Positions 38,953 to 45,597 of a stretch of DNA of 64,000 bases are shown in pieces (within the stretch, counting starts at the first letter, position 1; every line of letters begins with the position of its first letter). Location of the stretch: positions 124,001 to 188,000 of the forward strand of contig NZ_PXUP01000002.1 in NCBI RefSeq assembly GCF_003324185.1. Direction: 5' to 3'. The DNA is from Faecalibacterium prausnitzii. Its GTDB lineage: Bacteria > Bacillota > Clostridia > Oscillospirales > Ruminococcaceae. The position numbers were made by a program, and so were the translations under genes. The notes beneath the pieces were generated by a model. That model did not search any database. It saw only the letters and a program-made list of their open reading frames with translations, and was not told the origin of the DNA.

Positions 38953-40356
38953 ATGAAATTGAAATCCGTCTATGTATGCTCCAATTGCGGAGAGACAAGC
39001 CCCCGCTGGATGGGGCGCTGCCCCAGCTGCGGCAGCTGGAATACCATGAACGAGGATGTTGTTGCTGAAGCGCCAAAGGCGGGGACTCCTGCCGCCCGTC
39101 AGGCTGCCGCGGCTCGTCAGGAGGGCGTGACCACCCTGACCGCCCGGCGGCTGTCAGAGATCAGCACCACGGAGGAAAAAAGCCGCATCCTGACCGGTAT
39201 CTCGGAGCTGGACCGCGTATTGGGCGGCGGCATCGTGCTGGGCGGCGTGGTGCTTTTGAGCGGTGAGCCGGGCGTGGGTAAATCCACTATGCTGTTACAG
39301 CTGTGCGGCGCCATCTCCAACCAGCACAGCGTATTGTATATCACCGGCGAGGAGTCTGTCCGGCAGGTCAAGCTGCGTGCAGCGCGGCTGAAGGTACCGC
39401 AGGATAACATCTTTCTGGCGGCGGAAAATGACGTGGATGAGATCTGCGGTCTGATCGAAAAAGAAAAGCCGGACCTTGTGGTCATTGACTCCATCCAGAC
39501 CATGCGCTGCATGGATATCTCGTCCTCGTCCGGCACGGTCAGTCAGGTGAAGGAGAGTGCCGCCCGGCTGCTGGCGGTAGCCAAAAAGCAGGAGATTCCC
39601 ATGTTTATCGTGGGTCATGTGAACAAGGACGGCGCAATTGCAGGCCCCAAGGTCATGGAACATATCGTGGATACGGTGCTCTACTTTGAGGGCGACAAGA
39701 TGCTGCCGTACCGCATTCTGCGGGCAGCCAAAAACCGCTATGGCTCCACCAATGAGCTGGGAATGTTCGATATGACCGGCACAGGACTTGCCGAGATTGA
39801 AAACCCATCCCAGATGCTGCTGGAAGGACGTCCGCTGGGGGTTTCCGGCAACTGTGTGGCCTGTACCATGGAGGGCAGTCGTCCAATCCTGAGCGAGATA
39901 CAGGCACTTGCCACCAAGACGAATTTTCCGGCACCCCGTCGCGCCTGCAGCGGATACGACTATAACCGCATGAACCTTTTGATCGCCGTGCTGGAAAAGC
40001 GGGCAGGGTACTTCTTTGGCAATCTGGATGTCTATGTCAATATCGTGGGCGGCATTGCACTGCGGGATACCGCCTGCGACCTTGCAGTCTGCCTGAGCAT
40101 GGTCTCCTCGCTGCTGGACCGCCCGGTCAGCGATAAGCTTATCGCCATTGGTGAGGTAGGTCTGGGCGGGGAAGTGCGCAGTGTGCCCAATCTGGAACAG
40201 CGCCTGCACGAGGCTGAGCGTATCGGCTTTGAGCGGGCTGTTATCCCCAAGCACAGCCTTGCACACCTGAATGCCGCAGATTATCCCGGCATGAAGCTGG
40301 TCGGTGCAGCGTATATCGCAGATGCCATCAATGCGCTAAAAAATGACCGCCTGTGA
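38953..40356 (+). CDS. radA: DNA repair protein RadA/Sms
   Basis: 467-residue RecA-like branch-migration helicase. The N-terminal zinc ribbon is CSNCGETSPRWMGRCPSCGSW; Walker A is GEPGVGKSTM; the RadA-specific KNRYGS motif is present; a Lon-protease-like C-terminal domain (GGIALRDTACDLAV) completes it. It precedes the Xer recombinase by 15 bases, giving a recombination pair. Confidence 0.96.
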   Translation: MKLKSVYVCSNCGETSPRWMGRCPSCGSWNTMNEDVVAEAPKAGTPAARQAAAARQEGVTTLTARRLSEISTTEEKSRILTGISELDRVLGGGIVLGGVVLLSGEPGVGKSTMLLQLCGAISNQHSVLYITGEESVRQVKLRAARLKVPQDNIFLAAENDVDEICGLIEKEKPDLVVIDSIQTMRCMDISSSSGTVSQVKESAARLLAVAKKQEIPMFIVGHVNKDGAIAGPKVMEHIVDTVLYFEGDKMLPYRILRAAKNRYGSTNELGMFDMTGTGLAEIENPSQMLLEGRPLGVSGNCVACTMEGSRPILSEIQALATKTNFPAPRRACSGYDYNRMNLLIAVLEKRAGYFFGNLDVYVNIVGGIALRDTACDLAVCLSMVSSLLDRPVSDKLIAIGEVGLGGEVRSVPNLEQRLHEAERIGFERAVIPKHSLAHLNAADYPGMKLVGAAYIADAINALKNDRL

Positions 40357-40371
40357 TGAAACGAGGAACCT

Positions 40372-41580
40372 ATGTCGATTTATCTGGACGAAAGAAACCC
40401 CGGCAAGCACGCACCCTTTGAGGATGCTGCGCCGGATATTGTAGAATATGTGCGTTATCTTGAAGTGATCGCCGGCAAAAGTGCCAATACGGCGTTCAGT
40501 TATTACTGTGACCTGCGCTCCTTCAGCCGCTTTATGAAGCGCCGCCGCGGGCTTGTGGCCACGGATGCAGAATTCAAAGAGATCGATCCCAAGGGGCTGG
40601 ATACGGCCTTCTGGGGCAGCATAACAAAAGAGGATATCTACGAATATCTGTATTTTCTGAACCGGGAGTGCGGCAACAAAAAATCCTCTACCGCCCGGCG
40701 GCTGGCCAGTCTGCACGGCTTTTATGATTATCTGGTCAATCAGGTCAACCGCTTATCCGAGGACCCTACGGCGGCCATCCGCCCGCCCAAACAGGATAAG
40801 GTCTTGCCCAAGTACCTGACGGCAGAGCAATCCATTTCGCTTTTGGAGAGTACCCAGACCCAGAGCGATTTCCCGGAGCGGGATTATTGCATGGTGGTGC
40901 TGTTCCTCAACTGCGGTATGCGTCTTGCAGAGCTGGTAGGCATGGACCTTGGAGACATCGATTTAGAGCAGCGTCAGATCCGCCTGTTCGGCAAAGGCCA
41001 TAAAGAGCGTATGGTCTACCTGAATGATGCCTGCGTGGAGGCACTGCAACTATATCTGCGCAAGCGCAACACCATGGAGGGACTTTCACCCAAGGAAAAA
41101 GCGGTGTTTATTACCCGTATGCGCAAGGAACGTATTTCGAACCGCAGAGTAGAACAGCTGATCTCCGGTGCAATGAAGGCTGCGGGGCTGAAGGGCTTTT
41201 CCACCCATAAGCTGCGGCACACCGCCGCAACGCTGATGTATCAGACCGGCAATGTGGATATCCTTACCCTCAAGCAGCTTCTGGGGCACAGCAGTGTGGG
41301 AACAACACAAATTTATACGCACCTGCAAGAATTTCAGGTGCGCTCTGCCATTGAGGAAAACCCGCTGGGCAAGGTACTGCCCATCAAAGCTGCAAAAGTA
41401 AGCTTGGATACAACAGATGCGGCAGGGGAGACATCTGTTGAAAATGACCCGGCGGGAGATGACGCTTCTGAGCCGTCCGGCCCTATGGCGGCCTTTGAGG
41501 GCGCTGCACAGGATGGCTTCCGGGCAGATATCTCGGCAATGTCCAACGATGAAATGGACGATTCATCGCGCGATACTTAA
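40372..41580 (+). CDS. Xer-type tyrosine recombinase
   Basis: 402 residues. A SAM-like core-binding domain (about 20-125; KSANTAFSYYCDLRSFSRFM) precedes the catalytic domain with the full R-K-H-R-H-Y set: CGMRLAEL (R), the beta-hairpin Lys near GKGHKERM, HKLRHTAATLM (H and R), LLGHSS (H) and the nucleophile Tyr in TQIYTH. An extra acidic C-terminal tail of about 60 residues is unusual for XerC/XerD, which are about 300 residues. It follows radA by 15 bases. A dif/lox-like palindrome lies about 390 bases downstream. Confidence 0.93.
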   Translation: MSIYLDERNPGKHAPFEDAAPDIVEYVRYLEVIAGKSANTAFSYYCDLRSFSRFMKRRRGLVATDAEFKEIDPKGLDTAFWGSITKEDIYEYLYFLNRECGNKKSSTARRLASLHGFYDYLVNQVNRLSEDPTAAIRPPKQDKVLPKYLTAEQSISLLESTQTQSDFPERDYCMVVLFLNCGMRLAELVGMDLGDIDLEQRQIRLFGKGHKERMVYLNDACVEALQLYLRKRNTMEGLSPKEKAVFITRMRKERISNRRVEQLISGAMKAAGLKGFSTHKLRHTAATLMYQTGNVDILTLKQLLGHSSVGTTQIYTHLQEFQVRSAIEENPLGKVLPIKAAKVSLDTTDAAGETSVENDPAGDDASEPSGPMAAFEGAAQDGFRADISAMSNDEMDDSSRDT

Positions 41581-41607
41581 ACCTGCACAAAACGTCTGAG
41601 ACGATTC

Positions 41608-41656
41608 AAAGACCTATGGCGCGATCCGGCTTGACCGGATAACGTCATGGGTCTTT
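41608..41656 (+). terminator. Branched hairpin after the Xer recombinase
   Basis: Outer arms AAAGACCTATG and CATGGGTCTTT pair (one mismatch) around an inner ATCCGG/CCGGAT hairpin. It is followed by ATAATTT rather than a clean T run, so it is a weak terminator or a structured 3' end. Confidence 0.5.
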
Positions 41657-41677
41657 ATAATTTACATTATAAGCAGT
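41650..41677. other. Possible Xer-like palindrome 1
   Basis: TTATAA-TTTACA-TTATAA (centre 41661-41666). Inner ends ATAA and TTAT around a 6-base centre match the geometry of Xer core sites; 7 of 11 positions agree between the two 11-base arms. It may instead be simple AT-rich sequence. Confidence 0.3.
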
Positions 41678-41965
41678 CAGCAGCAATACATACAGGAGCA
41701 TCCATAGAAACGCGCAACGTAATGTCTACACAAAAACAAATGTTATAAAGCAAGCACATAGATGCTTACTGGAATAAAATGAATTACAAATGAACTGATG
41801 CAGCAGCGCATAACACAGGAAGCATCTGTAAGCATGAGACAAATAAAACCATAAAATATGATAAAATTTGCAGAATGTGCAAAACGGCTGAACTAAGCCC
41901 GAAAATGAGCCAGCTGAGGCTGGAACGCCAAAAATCCGGGAAATGGGCATTTTTCGCTTCCCTAA

Positions 41966-41993
41966 GTTTCGCATAACGTGCATTATACGAAAT
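41966..41993. other. Candidate dif/lox-like Xer recombination site
   Basis: 28 bp: left arm GTTTCGCATAA (41966-41976), 6-base centre CGTGCA, right arm TTATACGAAAT (41983-41993). The arms are inverted repeats at 9 of 11 positions. The left arm matches the E. coli dif XerC arm GGTGCGCATAA at 9 of 11, including CGCATAA, and the right arm resembles a loxP arm (TATACGAA). It is about 390 bases from a Xer recombinase gene and at the main orientation switch of the window. Confidence 0.55.
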
Positions 41994-42004
41994 ATCTATA
42001 ATCA

Positions 42005-42031
42005 AAAGAGAGAAGCTGCCCTTCTCTCTTT
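42005..42031. terminator. Perfect hairpin AAAGAGAGAAG/CTTCTCTCTTT
   Basis: 11-bp perfect stem with a CTGCC loop (42005-42031), giving a T-rich end on both strands. It may terminate transcripts arriving from the convergent amidase gene. Confidence 0.5.
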
Positions 42032-42175
42032 GTCAGATTTCCGGCAGCTTCTGTGGATGCTTTTCAGTTCGCACACGCACGCTTCTACGCCGCTGGACAT
42101 ATTACCAGTACGTTCAGGCGTTCGACTTATGTCTGCGATAGCCGTTCCAGTGCGTTACAGGTCCTGTTATAAAAG

Positions 42176-42214
42176 CAGTATCGTTTCTTTTCCTTTGGTG
42201 ATGCGATGCTCATT
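42176..42214 (+). pseudogene. queA: Relic of a queA C-terminus
   Basis: Thirteen codons read QYRFFSFGDAMLI, against KYRFFSFGDAMLI at the end of the intact queA (35865-35903). Six of the codons differ only by synonymous bases (for example TAT/TAC, GGT/GGC, GCG/GCT), which suggests divergence under selection before decay rather than a fresh copy. A stop codon lies two codons upstream and no further QueA sequence is recognisable. The final bases overlap the amidase stop region. Confidence 0.75.
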
Positions 42215-43073
42215 TCACCGGCAGCGGCTTTGTGCCGAAGTATACACAGATGGCTTCGTAATAAATGCGTGCCACTGTCTTGCAGCCCTGTTCACTGCCA
42301 AAATGCTCCACATCCTCATCGTTCGTCACAAAACACTGCTCTGCCAACACTGCCGGACAATCCACATCCTCCAGCAGCGTAAAGCTGCGCTCAGGCCGAA
42401 CCTGCGTGTAGGTATTCTCCACCAGCTGCTTCTGGTCGTTTTCCAGATAATAAATGTAACGCACTCCCCCACGTCCGCGCAGCTTTGCGCCAATGCTCTG
42501 CATTCCACCGGCCAGCAGTTTTGCAAAATAAAAACTTTCCTGATGCCATGTACGCCCGGGCACTGCCGGATAGCATTCAAAACCGGCTGCCGTAGAGCCA
42601 TTGGCTGCGGAGTTGCCGTGGATGGACAGCAGCAGCTGCGGGCTTTGGGCGTTGGCTGCTGCTGCACGCTGGGCAGGCGTGGCGGTTGCATCAAAGCTTT
42701 CCCGGGTTTGCAGCGGGATGTAATTCGAATCCTCTTCTAACCATTGGAGCAGCGCAGCAGCCGTGGCTGCGGTGACCTGTTTTTCTTCGACCACTCCCCT
42801 TGCGCCCGGGTCACTGCCGCCATGCCCGGCGTCTATTGCCACCCGGTACGGCGGGTCGCCCACCACAGGACGAAAGTCCTCCGCTGAGACTGAGACTGCG
42901 GATTCTGCGGGTGCGTTCAGTTCCAGCGCCGCCCTCCATAAAAACAGGCCGAAACAGAGCATCAATGCCGCAAAAACAAGCAGTAGTCCATGCAAAATCC
43001 GACGCTGGGCTTTGCGGCGGTGCGTTTTGCGTTTACTATGCTTATTTGCGGGTCTGCGATGACTGGTTGGCAT
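42210..43073 (-). CDS. N-acetylmuramoyl-L-alanine amidase (Amidase_3)
   Basis: 287 residues. A basic N-terminus and one membrane helix (about 27-48, LHGLLLVFAALMLCFGLFLW) anchor an extracytoplasmic zinc amidase domain. Zinc-ligand motifs are DAGHGGSDPGA, a downstream Glu (VVEEKQ), SIHGNSAAN and the C-terminal catalytic Glu in VLAEQCFVTNDED. It cleaves the MurNAc-L-Ala bond; relatives include CwlD, which makes spore-cortex lactam, but specificity cannot be read here. GGAAG precedes the ATG. Confidence 0.9.
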   Translation of the reverse strand: MPTSHRRPANKHSKRKTHRRKAQRRILHGLLLVFAALMLCFGLFLWRAALELNAPAESAVSVSAEDFRPVVGDPPYRVAIDAGHGGSDPGARGVVEEKQVTAATAAALLQWLEEDSNYIPLQTRESFDATATPAQRAAAANAQSPQLLLSIHGNSAANGSTAAGFECYPAVPGRTWHQESFYFAKLLAGGMQSIGAKLRGRGGVRYIYYLENDQKQLVENTYTQVRPERSFTLLEDVDCPAVLAEQCFVTNDEDVEHFGSEQGCKTVARIYYEAICVYFGTKPLPVK

Positions 43074-43141
43074 AAAGTTTTACTTCCTGTTCGTTTTACA
43101 TTTATAATACGAGTATACTCGCCTTTTCCCTGCACTGCAAC

Positions 43142-43174
43142 AAAAAAAGACTGCCAATTTTTCAAAAGGCAGTC
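43142..43174 (-). terminator. Intrinsic terminator of the phoH-mutS2 operon
   Basis: On the - strand GACTGCC (43174-43168) pairs with GGCAGTC (43155-43149), followed by TTTTTTT (43148-43142), just after the mutS2 stop. Confidence 0.8.
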
Positions 43175-43182
43175 CTTTGGGG

Positions 43183-45597
43183 TTATTTCAGTTCTACAAC
43201 CGTCACGCCGCTTTCGCCTTCGCCGTAACGGCCAAGACGGAAGCTTTTTACCATGCGGTTGCCGCGCAGATGCTTATGGATGGCAGTGCGCAGTGCGCCG
43301 GTGCCGTTGCCGTGGATCAGATAGACTACTGTCTGTCCGTTCAGGATGGCGCGGTCAATAAAGGAGTCCACCTCCGACAGCGCCTCGTCCACTGTAAGTC
43401 CCAGCAGGTTGCACTCCATTTTGGCGGTACGCTGTACGCGCTCTACCCTGCCGTTGGGACGGTTAGTGTCGCCGGTCAGGCGGGAATACCGCTGCTGCGC
43501 TTTGGTCTTGGGCACAGTGGGTTCTTTCACCAGCTTTTCCGGCTGCTTCAGGCCCTTGAGGGGTACCTTGGTTTTGATGATACCGGCACGCACCAGCACA
43601 TCGCCGTTTTTATCAGGCAGCGCCAGAACGGTGGCCAGCTGGTTCAGTTCTGCAATGCAGACCTCCTGTCCCACTTTTACCTCCTTCAGCGGCACAAACT
43701 CCTTGACGGGGTTATGCACCACCTCCGTACCGGCAAACAGCTTTTCGGTCTCCTTTTTGGCAATTTCGCGGGCACGCTGCGCCTTCTGCTGGGCGCTCAT
43801 GCGCTCGTCCTTTTGCAGCTGGCGCAGTTCATCGGTCAGTGCGTAGGCCTGCGTTTCCACCTGCTGTGCCAGCGTGCGCGCCTTGGCACGGGCAGCTTCC
43901 AATTCATTTTCGCCCTGCTGGATCAACTCATCCCGTTTTTTGCGGGCTGCTTCCAGCTGATGGGAAGCTTCGTTGCGTAGCTGCTCCACTTCGTTCTGAC
44001 TTTCCTTCAGCTGCAGCTTCAGGTCGTCCAGCTGACCCAGAACCGCATCCAGACGCTTATCCTCGGCAGACAGATGCTGTTGAGCCGCTTCAATGACGCG
44101 GCTGGGGATGCCCAGTTTTTCACTGATCAGGAATGCGTTGGATTTGCCTGGTACGCCCACACTCAGCTTATAGGTGGGACGTAGGGTCTCCAGATCAAAC
44201 TCGCAACTGGCGTTGACCACGCCCTTAGTCTCCAGTGCAAAAACCTTCAGTTCCGCATAGTGGGTGGTTGCCATCAGCAGCACACCACGGCGGCGCAGCT
44301 CCTCAATGATGGCAACTGCCAGCGCGGCACCCTCGGCGGGGTCGGTACCGGCACCCAGCTCGTCCAGCAGCACAAGGGTGTGCGGCATAGCCAGTTCCAG
44401 AATACCGGTGATTTTTTTCATGTGGCCGGAGAAGGTGGAAAGGCTCTGTTCAATGCTCTGCTCGTCGCCGATATCCACCAGAAATTCATCAAACACGCAG
44501 ATCTCGCTGCGCTCGTCAGCAGGAATCAAAAAACCGCACTGTGCCATAGCGCACAGCAGACCGGCGGTTTTCAGAGTAACCGTCTTACCGCCGGTGTTCG
44601 GGCCGGTGATGATAAGGGAATCGTATTCCCCGCCCAGTGCAATATCCACAGGAACACACTTTTGCGGGTCGATCAGCGGGTGGCGGGCACGGATCAGATT
44701 AAAGGAAGAATCCGTCCGCACAGCGGGCTTGAAGGCCTTCAGCTCCAGTGCAAGCCGCGCCTTTGCCAGCAGGATGTCGATTTCCAGCATGGCCTTGTAG
44801 CTGTACTGGAATTGCGGCTCAATGGCGGCCACCTGTGCGGTAAAGGCCACCAAAATGCGCTCGATCTCCTGTGCCTCCTGTGCGCGGTACTGCAGAATGC
44901 GGGCGTTTGCCTCCACCACAGCCTGCGGTTCCACGAACACCGTAGCGCCCGTAGAGGATACATCGTGGATGATACCGCTCACCTCGCCGCGGTACTCGCT
45001 CTTGACCGGCACAACATACCGGCCGTTGCGCATGGAAACCACACTCTCCTGCAGGTATTTGGAGGTGTCCATATTGCGTACCATGCTTTCCAGCCGGTCG
45101 CGGATGCTGTTTTCGGTGGCGCGGATCTTTTTGCGCAGCTCTGCCAGCGTGCGGGAGGCGGTATCCGCCATGGCATCCGGTGCCAGAATGGCGCTGGAGA
45201 TCTGCTGCTCAAGGCCCGGCTCCGGTGCCAGCGCGTAAAACAGATCATTGGTCGGCAGCGCGTCATGCTCAGAGGAGCCGTACCAGCTGGTCAGGTGCTG
45301 AAAATTGCGCAGCGCACCGGCCACCATCAGCAGTTCGCCCATGGAAAGCACGCCGCCCTTTACGGCACGGGCGGCAAGCTGGCTGACCCCCTCTACCCCG
45401 CCAAAGCGCGGCGAGCCGTTTTTAATCAGCAGGGTGTTGATGGCGTCCGTCTGCTCTAGTGCGTAGCGCACCTCGTCCGGGTCGCACTGCGGCTCAATGG
45501 CCAGCAGCATAGCACGGGCTTCCTTGCATACGCAGCCCTCCGCTGCACGCGCAATGATCTTATCCAGTTCTAATGTTTTTAAGTAGCTTGTTTCCAT
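43183..45597 (-). CDS. mutS2: Endonuclease MutS2
   Basis: 804 residues. MutS core and lever domains, Walker A GPNTGGKTVTLK, STFSGHMKKI and LVLLDELGAGTDPAEG, a long coiled coil (about 515-640), then a KOW-like segment and a C-terminal Smr domain with HGNGTGALR. The usual LDLRG of Smr reads CNLLGLTVDEA here. In B. subtilis MutS2 rescues collided ribosomes; in other bacteria it suppresses recombination. Confidence 0.95.
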   Translation of the reverse strand: METSYLKTLELDKIIARAAEGCVCKEARAMLLAIEPQCDPDEVRYALEQTDAINTLLIKNGSPRFGGVEGVSQLAARAVKGGVLSMGELLMVAGALRNFQHLTSWYGSSEHDALPTNDLFYALAPEPGLEQQISSAILAPDAMADTASRTLAELRKKIRATENSIRDRLESMVRNMDTSKYLQESVVSMRNGRYVVPVKSEYRGEVSGIIHDVSSTGATVFVEPQAVVEANARILQYRAQEAQEIERILVAFTAQVAAIEPQFQYSYKAMLEIDILLAKARLALELKAFKPAVRTDSSFNLIRARHPLIDPQKCVPVDIALGGEYDSLIITGPNTGGKTVTLKTAGLLCAMAQCGFLIPADERSEICVFDEFLVDIGDEQSIEQSLSTFSGHMKKITGILELAMPHTLVLLDELGAGTDPAEGAALAVAIIEELRRRGVLLMATTHYAELKVFALETKGVVNASCEFDLETLRPTYKLSVGVPGKSNAFLISEKLGIPSRVIEAAQQHLSAEDKRLDAVLGQLDDLKLQLKESQNEVEQLRNEASHQLEAARKKRDELIQQGENELEAARAKARTLAQQVETQAYALTDELRQLQKDERMSAQQKAQRAREIAKKETEKLFAGTEVVHNPVKEFVPLKEVKVGQEVCIAELNQLATVLALPDKNGDVLVRAGIIKTKVPLKGLKQPEKLVKEPTVPKTKAQQRYSRLTGDTNRPNGRVERVQRTAKMECNLLGLTVDEALSEVDSFIDRAILNGQTVVYLIHGNGTGALRTAIHKHLRGNRMVKSFRLGRYGEGESGVTVVELK

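Follow-up and report, generated by a model that had tools for sequence, protein, structure and literature searches.

A candidate single-recombinase Xer/dif system with a palindromic site in Faecalibacterium prausnitzii and related Clostridia

Introduction

Resolution of chromosome dimers by Xer recombination involves two enzymes in most bacteria. Systems with a single recombinase are also known and include XerS/difSL, XerH/difH and XerA (PMC5357621, excerpt). To these can be added XerL/dif of the Legionellales, in which a single recombinase is associated with a palindromic site; this system was revealed by an integrating element and has been shown genetically (PMC9765430, excerpt).

Among the open-licence articles in PMC, searched by titles and openings of abstracts, none was found on a lone Xer or a palindromic dif in Ruminococcaceae or Clostridia, nor on chromosome dimer resolution together with Ruminococcaceae. 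In excerpts of its main text, a broad prediction of dif sites published in 2011 names neither Faecalibacterium nor Ruminococcus, and reports no success for C. perfringens or C. beijerinckii (PMC3025954). In C. acetobutylicum, marker excision reached 36% with the predicted dif and 37% with a random 29-mer (PMC10312008, excerpt), which would fit a wrong predicted site in that species.

In this article, we examine a 28-bp inverted repeat next to a Xer-type recombinase gene in a stretch of 64,000 nucleotides of the F. prausnitzii genome, referred to below as the window. From sequence comparison, this repeat is very probably the chromosomal dif of a single-recombinase Xer system that would resolve chromosome dimers.

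The site and the neighbouring recombinase

The site reads GTTTCGCATAA-CGTGCA-TTATACGAAAT and consists of two 11-bp arms and a 6-bp centre, 28 bp in all (Table 1). A preliminary description of the window had proposed an inverted-repeat site here; the position that it gave is exact and the arms pair at nine of 11 positions. No match with up to 3 mismatches appeared in 100 shuffles of the window. The genome-wide copy search that had been recommended returned a single match in the 3.03-Mb, 76-contig draft genome at the same tolerance, and none for the reversed control. Against E. coli dif, the left arm agrees at nine of 11 positions, as had been noted, and the right arm at eight. The likeness of the right arm to loxP, also mentioned in the preliminary description, contributes nothing to the interpretation. 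An RNA element was also considered at this locus and rejected, as an Rfam scan of 40300-43200 up to E = 0.1 gave no match.

Table 1. Coordinates of the features of the dif-like locus in the window
Feature	Position	Strand	Remarks
Gene upstream of xer, RadA-like by eye	38953..40356	+	Open reading frame
Lone Xer-type tyrosine recombinase, 402 aa	40372..41580	+	Stop codon 385 bp from the site
C-terminal tail of the recombinase, residues 344-402	41401..41577	+	Predicted disordered; contains a patch shared by core genus members
Spacer from the xer stop to the site, 385 bp	41581..41965	+	No Rfam match
GC-skew sign change, taken as replication terminus	41947..41993	.	Cumulative maximum at 41947
dif-like core site	41966..41993	+	Arms 41966-41976 and 41983-41993; central 6 bp 41977-41982 (CGTGCA)
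Next gene past the site, convergent and amidase-like by eye	42210..43073	-	Open reading frame

The length of the recombinase and its distance from the site, previously put at about 390 bp, were both borne out. Residues R184, K208, H279, R282, H306 and Y315, the tyrosine-recombinase signature, are invariant in an alignment of 24 family members. The protein stays under the NCBIfam cut-offs for XerC (211 of 335 bits), XerS (139 of 267), XerA_Arch (184.9 of 220) and XerD (202 of 330), the last of these being an equivalog cut-off so strict that just 4 of 14 control genomes pass it. In a tree built with a quick method (107 rows, none dropped, with long-branch warnings and no rows for XerS, XerH, XerA or XerL), 53 of these recombinases make up a single clade with an SH-aLRT of 100 and a long stem (2.45); the 46 canonical XerC/D proteins and the seven 'second' Xers of other families fall outside it.

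The extra C-terminal tail of about 60 residues that had been pointed out is real, and residues 344-367 and 369-402 have pLDDT values below 50 in the structure model. Other family members compared have 318-386 aa, against 402 aa in the window. Within the tail, a patch PMxAFxG(A/T)A..G is present in all eight genus loci L157-L164 and absent from the divergent L033, L034 and L073; it is possibly a contact point for a partner such as FtsK. The core of the protein is modelled with confidence, and archaeal XerA (5hxy) is the best fold match of the model and the second-best profile match. The segment 310-318, which holds the tyrosine, and the tail are poorly modelled and pTM is 0.56, so that the fold matches confirm just the tyrosine-recombinase fold. 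During these searches, a 401-residue chain labelled RaiA (PDB 9i5v, chain 14) matched the Xer profile at 5e-44, and its label looks mistaken.

Linkage of gene and site in the genus

A check on close relatives, called for in the preliminary description, gave a site match (up to 3 mismatches) in 29 of 31 genus genomes, including all 22 good ones, against a single match for the reversed control (in G030). The match in G020 is weak and probably due to chance, but a site of the family type closely precedes the xer gene of this genome. Both the gene (XerD model, E ≤ 1e-28) and the site could be located in 27 of the 31 genomes. The expected linkage holds, with the two on one contig and no more than 4 kb apart in 26 of these 27 and on different contigs in one. 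The site is 3' of xer in 23 of the 26, at 0.6-4 kb from the Xer domain match, and 5' in three.

Among 25 core-type genus sites, the arms are symmetric at 8 (three sites), 9 (seven), 10 (seven) or all 11 positions (eight). The centre follows C-N-[TC]-[GA]-CA and is never self-complementary. Three divergent genus members (L033, L034 and L040) carry hybrid sites just upstream of xer, composed of a family-like left arm, ATTTCGCTTAA, and a genus-like right arm, TTATACGAAAT; these are likely intermediates in a shift of the type and place of the site.

One recombinase or two

The genome under study has 15 Phage_integrase matches, made up of this recombinase and 14 others. One of the latter (L004 on contig C44; 355 aa, 129 bits to XerD) was examined as a second Xer and discarded, since it has no place-conserved counterpart in the genus at E ≤ 1e-28. 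In ten of the 22 good genus genomes the XerD model (E ≤ 1e-28) matches this protein alone, and its extra matches in the other 12 vary in place and length. At this threshold, no conserved second Xer was found in the 22 good genomes, in line with the lone recombinase of the preliminary description.

In the family, 122 of 148 genomes match the recombinase at E ≤ 1e-30 and five of the 122 have a second match. One genome bears two adjacent copies of the lone-Xer gene (G092:C56:6837-9608), with the site on another contig. Some genomes outside the family possess a second, canonical-like Xer, and for this reason the term 'lone' is used here for the genus and the family alone. Among these, seven loci from the order's other families (L329-L335) have a second canonical-like Xer of about 300 aa at 1-4 kb from the first, in opposite orientation in six of the seven; these second Xers constitute a clade of their own in the tree.

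Position at the replication terminus

Cumulative GC skew (±9 kb) peaks 32 bp from the site centre. Genes to the left of the site are mostly on the + strand and those to the right mostly on the - strand; together, the skew peak and the strand switch give the pattern of a replication terminus. The placement of the site at the skew switch, one of the checks that had been proposed, is shared by relatives: over 9 kb, skew is positive on the left and negative on the right in the window and in 15 of 17 large-contig relatives, the failing ones being G050 and G146. With 3-kb windows, L139, L141, L156 and L164 fail.

Nineteen genomes were searched for dnaA, and 13 of them have it together with the site or the gene on one chromosome-sized contig; G000, G020, G043, G143, G174 and G169 are left out of the count because their chromosome is split or dnaA is on another contig than the site. 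In 12 of the 13 usable genomes (G002, G003, G014, G017, G027, G028, G029, G030, G050, G081, G142 and G161), 48-55% of the chromosome separates the site or the gene from dnaA. The exception is G146, with its gene at 2.089 Mb and neither a palindrome nor a skew flip beside xer. In the roughly 815 of 2573 kb that were read, the only palindrome of this genome with 11 of 11 symmetric positions is ACTGCACAAAATATATGTTTTGTGCAGT, at 2231247, and 141 kb separate it from the gene. From about 2.14 Mb onwards skew stays close to zero, and it turns clearly negative at 2.235 Mb. The palindrome therefore tracks the skew turn and not the gene. It is situated 25% of the chromosome from dnaA and not opposite. 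The sampled skew points to a dnaA away from the origin in this assembly, or else to a rearranged or misjoined chromosome. The gamma domain of FtsK is encoded in 140 of 148 family genomes, including the one under study.

Palindromes in the family, order and class

The commonest palindrome of the family, ATTTCGCTAAAT-N4-ATTTAGCGAAAT, occurs in 76 of 148 family genomes (up to 3 mismatches; the reversed control gave 0 throughout), and five of the 76 have two or three matches. Extra near-perfect palindromes (L292-L298) in G048, G109, G176, G043 and G143 are away from xer, and the stretches read around each contain no second copy.

A more general rule asked for arms symmetric at 10 or more of 11 positions with inner AA/TT, in the interval from -500 to +60 of the xer start. 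Loci were scanned from 89 of the 122 family genomes with the gene, and four without 400 bp upstream were not counted, which leaves 85. The 89 comprise 29 best protein matches, 43 loci chosen because the common palindrome was absent (a downward bias) and 17 from genomes with a known site or large contigs (an upward bias, with the site in 17 of 17). A palindrome is present near the xer start in 66 of 85 family loci, or 49 of 68 without the 17 fetched for a known or expected site, in 10 of 21 loci from other families of the order and in 15 of 32 on named Clostridia contigs. It is missing from this interval in 19, 11 and 17 loci of the three sets, a few having one further off. Canonical XerC/D loci have none near the gene start (0/45). 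Elsewhere, the same rule finds 8 palindromes in 661 kb (family), 0 in 70 kb (order), 6 in 259 kb (named Clostridia) and 1 in 353 kb (canonical). In most family loci with a site, the palindrome is 21-344 bp upstream of the xer start, unlike the site of the window, which is 3' of xer.

Symmetry was also assessed on AAAY-N4-RTTT seeds, a test that sets no symmetry condition at the eight outer positions, the inner seed itself being symmetric. All eight outer positions are symmetric in 56 of 85 seeds near family xer starts versus 1 of 160 elsewhere, and in 13 of 22 versus 3 of 89 on named Clostridia contigs; the canonical XerC/D loci gave 0 of 6 near gene starts and 0 of 38 elsewhere. A per-position symmetry table, being conditioned on symmetry at 10 or more of 11 positions, is not taken as proof. 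The 66 family sites have 25 distinct left arms, for example ATTTCGCTAAA (30 sites), ACCGCACTAAA, ATTGCACCAAA and GTTTCACTAAA, and the right arm co-varies. Arms that are lineage-specific yet symmetric fit the prediction of one protein binding both.

Orthologs of the recombinase are found in 109 of 117 genomes of the order (E ≤ 1e-100) and in 139 of 214 genomes of the class (E ≤ 1e-69, counted by hand); the other class genomes have weaker matches alone (73 genomes, best 4e-55) or none (two). Named carriers among the best 80 of 579 loci include Gemmiger, Acutalibacter, Pseudoflavonifractor, Peptoniphilus, Proteiniclasticum and Clostridium hydrogeniformans, the last with ACTTCGCTAAAT-ATAC-ATTTAGCGAAGT upstream of xer. 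Twenty further stretches were taken from the class and the order, one of which (L336, fetched for its second Xer) lacks the ortholog. Of the remaining 19 loci, 12 have a palindrome symmetric at 10 or more of 11 positions within about 2 kb of the ortholog and two more have one at nine of 11; skew is positive on the left and negative on the right in 11 and fails in eight.

Phages at the site

The exact family palindrome is present on seven IMG/VR contigs. One of these (L165) has a lone xer and a site, adjoined by genes for a Rep_trans initiator (8.9e-35) and a Zot-domain ATPase (6.6e-6). In the family genome G041 (L302), a perfect site and xer enclose genes for Zot (6e-6) and Rep_trans (3.5e-33). 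A second copy beside the xer start has an identical left arm and centre and a degenerate right arm, and the two copies share the same upstream flank but for one inserted base. The L302 proteins scanned, which are part of the provirus genes, include no integrase. In the IMG/VR contig L167, two copies of the site 5831 bp apart surround a Zot-like gene, with flanks that agree at 27 of 28 bases; the perfect copy adjoins xer, and the second one has two degenerate arms and a different centre. Both sets of junctions, and best those of L302, would fit integration of a filamentous phage by the host Xer at its dif. Filamentous viruses thus appear to use the chromosomal dif-like site for entry. Zot matches are found in 11 of 148 family genomes; five of them are in frames shorter than 400 aa, and three of these (G035, G041 and G135) are within 5 kb of a site that is near xer or split from it.

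Four related, tailed-phage-like contigs (L166, L168, L169 and L171) have the exact palindrome between the genes for the small and large terminase subunits, which a family search named in L168 only. In these phages the palindrome could be an attachment site or the dimer-resolution site of a phage-plasmid. Seven further IMG/VR contigs (L172-L178) carry a genus-type site.

Interpretation and alternative explanations

The observations computed here are a defined site, its single copy, its position at the terminus, its linkage to the gene, the symmetry of its arms, which persists through lineage-specific changes, one conserved Xer in the genus, FtsK with a gamma domain, and phages at the site of the family. 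In the proposed mechanism, two copies of the neighbouring Xer would bind the two inverted arms. A dimeric chromosome, with its two sites probably drawn together by FtsK, would thus carry four protomers, and strand exchange in the 6-bp centre would yield two monomers when the cell divides. Binding by the candidate Xer, catalysis, a dependence on FtsK, the resolution of dimers and the sufficiency of one protein are predictions read from sequence.

The site could instead belong to an ordinary two-recombinase dif, in which the protein would be half of a XerC/XerD-like pair and its partner a divergent tyrosine recombinase unrecognised here. The 15 Phage_integrase matches, one other of which scores 129 bits to XerD, and the second Xer of some related lineages lend themselves to such a reading, which we nevertheless consider very unlikely: at E ≤ 1e-28 a second XerD-like protein is missing from 10 of the 22 good genus genomes and is not place-conserved in the rest, and arms that are symmetric and co-varying are unlike sites for two different proteins. 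Even the loci with a second Xer (L329-L335) keep sites symmetric at 9-11 of 11 positions. A shade less credible still is a regulatory role, with the palindrome as an operator by which the recombinase or some other regulator would control xer and at which no recombination would occur. The upstream location in most family loci with a site (21-344 bp from the xer start) is what such an element would show, but phage genes lie between copies of the palindrome and the genus centre is never self-complementary. The operator reading was set aside on account of the 3' position of the site in 23 of 26 genus genomes, at 0.6-4 kb from the Xer domain, and on account of G146, where no palindrome adjoins xer and one occurs at the skew turn, at a distance of 141 kb.

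It is extremely unlikely that the site is the attachment or resolution site of a mobile element that has come to be at the terminus by chance. The same palindrome does occur on contigs of filamentous and tailed phages, but the site is kept with the gene across the genus and the family, Zot is found in just 11 of 148 family genomes whereas sites are widespread, and both proviruses have one perfect and one degenerate copy, as if one of the two imitated a host site.

A single-recombinase Xer/dif system is therefore retained as the preferred interpretation, and its extension, with a palindromic site, to much of the class Clostridia is the best reading of the survey. The new single-recombinase case anticipated in the preliminary description is supported and is wider than claimed, being family-wide and reaching much of the class. 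Going further, we find it rather probable that this is an additional single-recombinase Xer lineage beside XerS, XerH, XerA and XerL in much of the Clostridia, that its dif is fully palindromic, with arms and protein evolving together, that the order of strand exchange is set by the central bases or FtsK, and that some published clostridial dif predictions modelled on B. subtilis are wrong. With a full palindrome and co-evolving arms, the order would have to come from the centre or FtsK, since neither two proteins nor unequal arms could provide it.

If true, single-enzyme chromosome dimer resolution would be widespread in abundant gut bacteria and would offer a natural test of the order of strand exchange when both protein and arms are symmetric, as well as an entry route for gut filamentous phages. 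It may also explain the trouble with dif in C. perfringens, C. beijerinckii and C. acetobutylicum, if the ortholog is present there. The site serves as a sequence marker of the terminus in draft genomes and is a possible marker-excision tool for anaerobes.

Comparison with known systems

The proviruses resemble the IMEX filamentous phages of the CTXphi type in that genes of a filamentous phage are flanked by two dif-like copies of which one is degenerate, and in the lack of an integrase among the L302 proteins scanned. They differ in that the host recombinase would here be a lone Xer, integration being inferred from sequence.

With XerCD/dif of E. coli and B. subtilis, the locus shares a 28-bp site at the terminus, 11-bp arms, a 6-bp centre, a single copy and the FtsK gamma domain. 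It departs from that system in the nearly or fully symmetric arms, in a protein that is under the NCBIfam XerC and XerD cut-offs and forms its own clade, and in that no conserved second recombinase was found in the genus.

XerS/difSL of streptococci and lactococci likewise combines a single recombinase with a genetically linked site, but difSL is an atypical 31 bp (PMC5357621, excerpt) compared with 28 bp here, and the protein reaches 139 of 267 bits with the XerS model. XerH/difH of Campylobacterota also has one recombinase and a site near its gene (PMC5357621, excerpt). In difH, blocks of about 6 bp are always palindromic and the arms show a conserved asymmetry (PMC3325230, excerpt), whereas the 11-bp arms described here are symmetric throughout; XerH (PDB 5jjv) is a weaker profile match to the recombinase than XerD or XerA.

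Archaeal XerA/dif has a single recombinase and a 28-bp site in common with our locus, and is described as FtsK-independent (PMC5357621, excerpt); the present system is bacterial, with a gamma-domain FtsK, and its protein is under the XerA_Arch cut-off (184.9 of 220 bits). XerL/dif, likened here by its description (PMC9765430, excerpt), belongs to a different phylum and shares with the clostridial locus both a single recombinase and a palindromic site.
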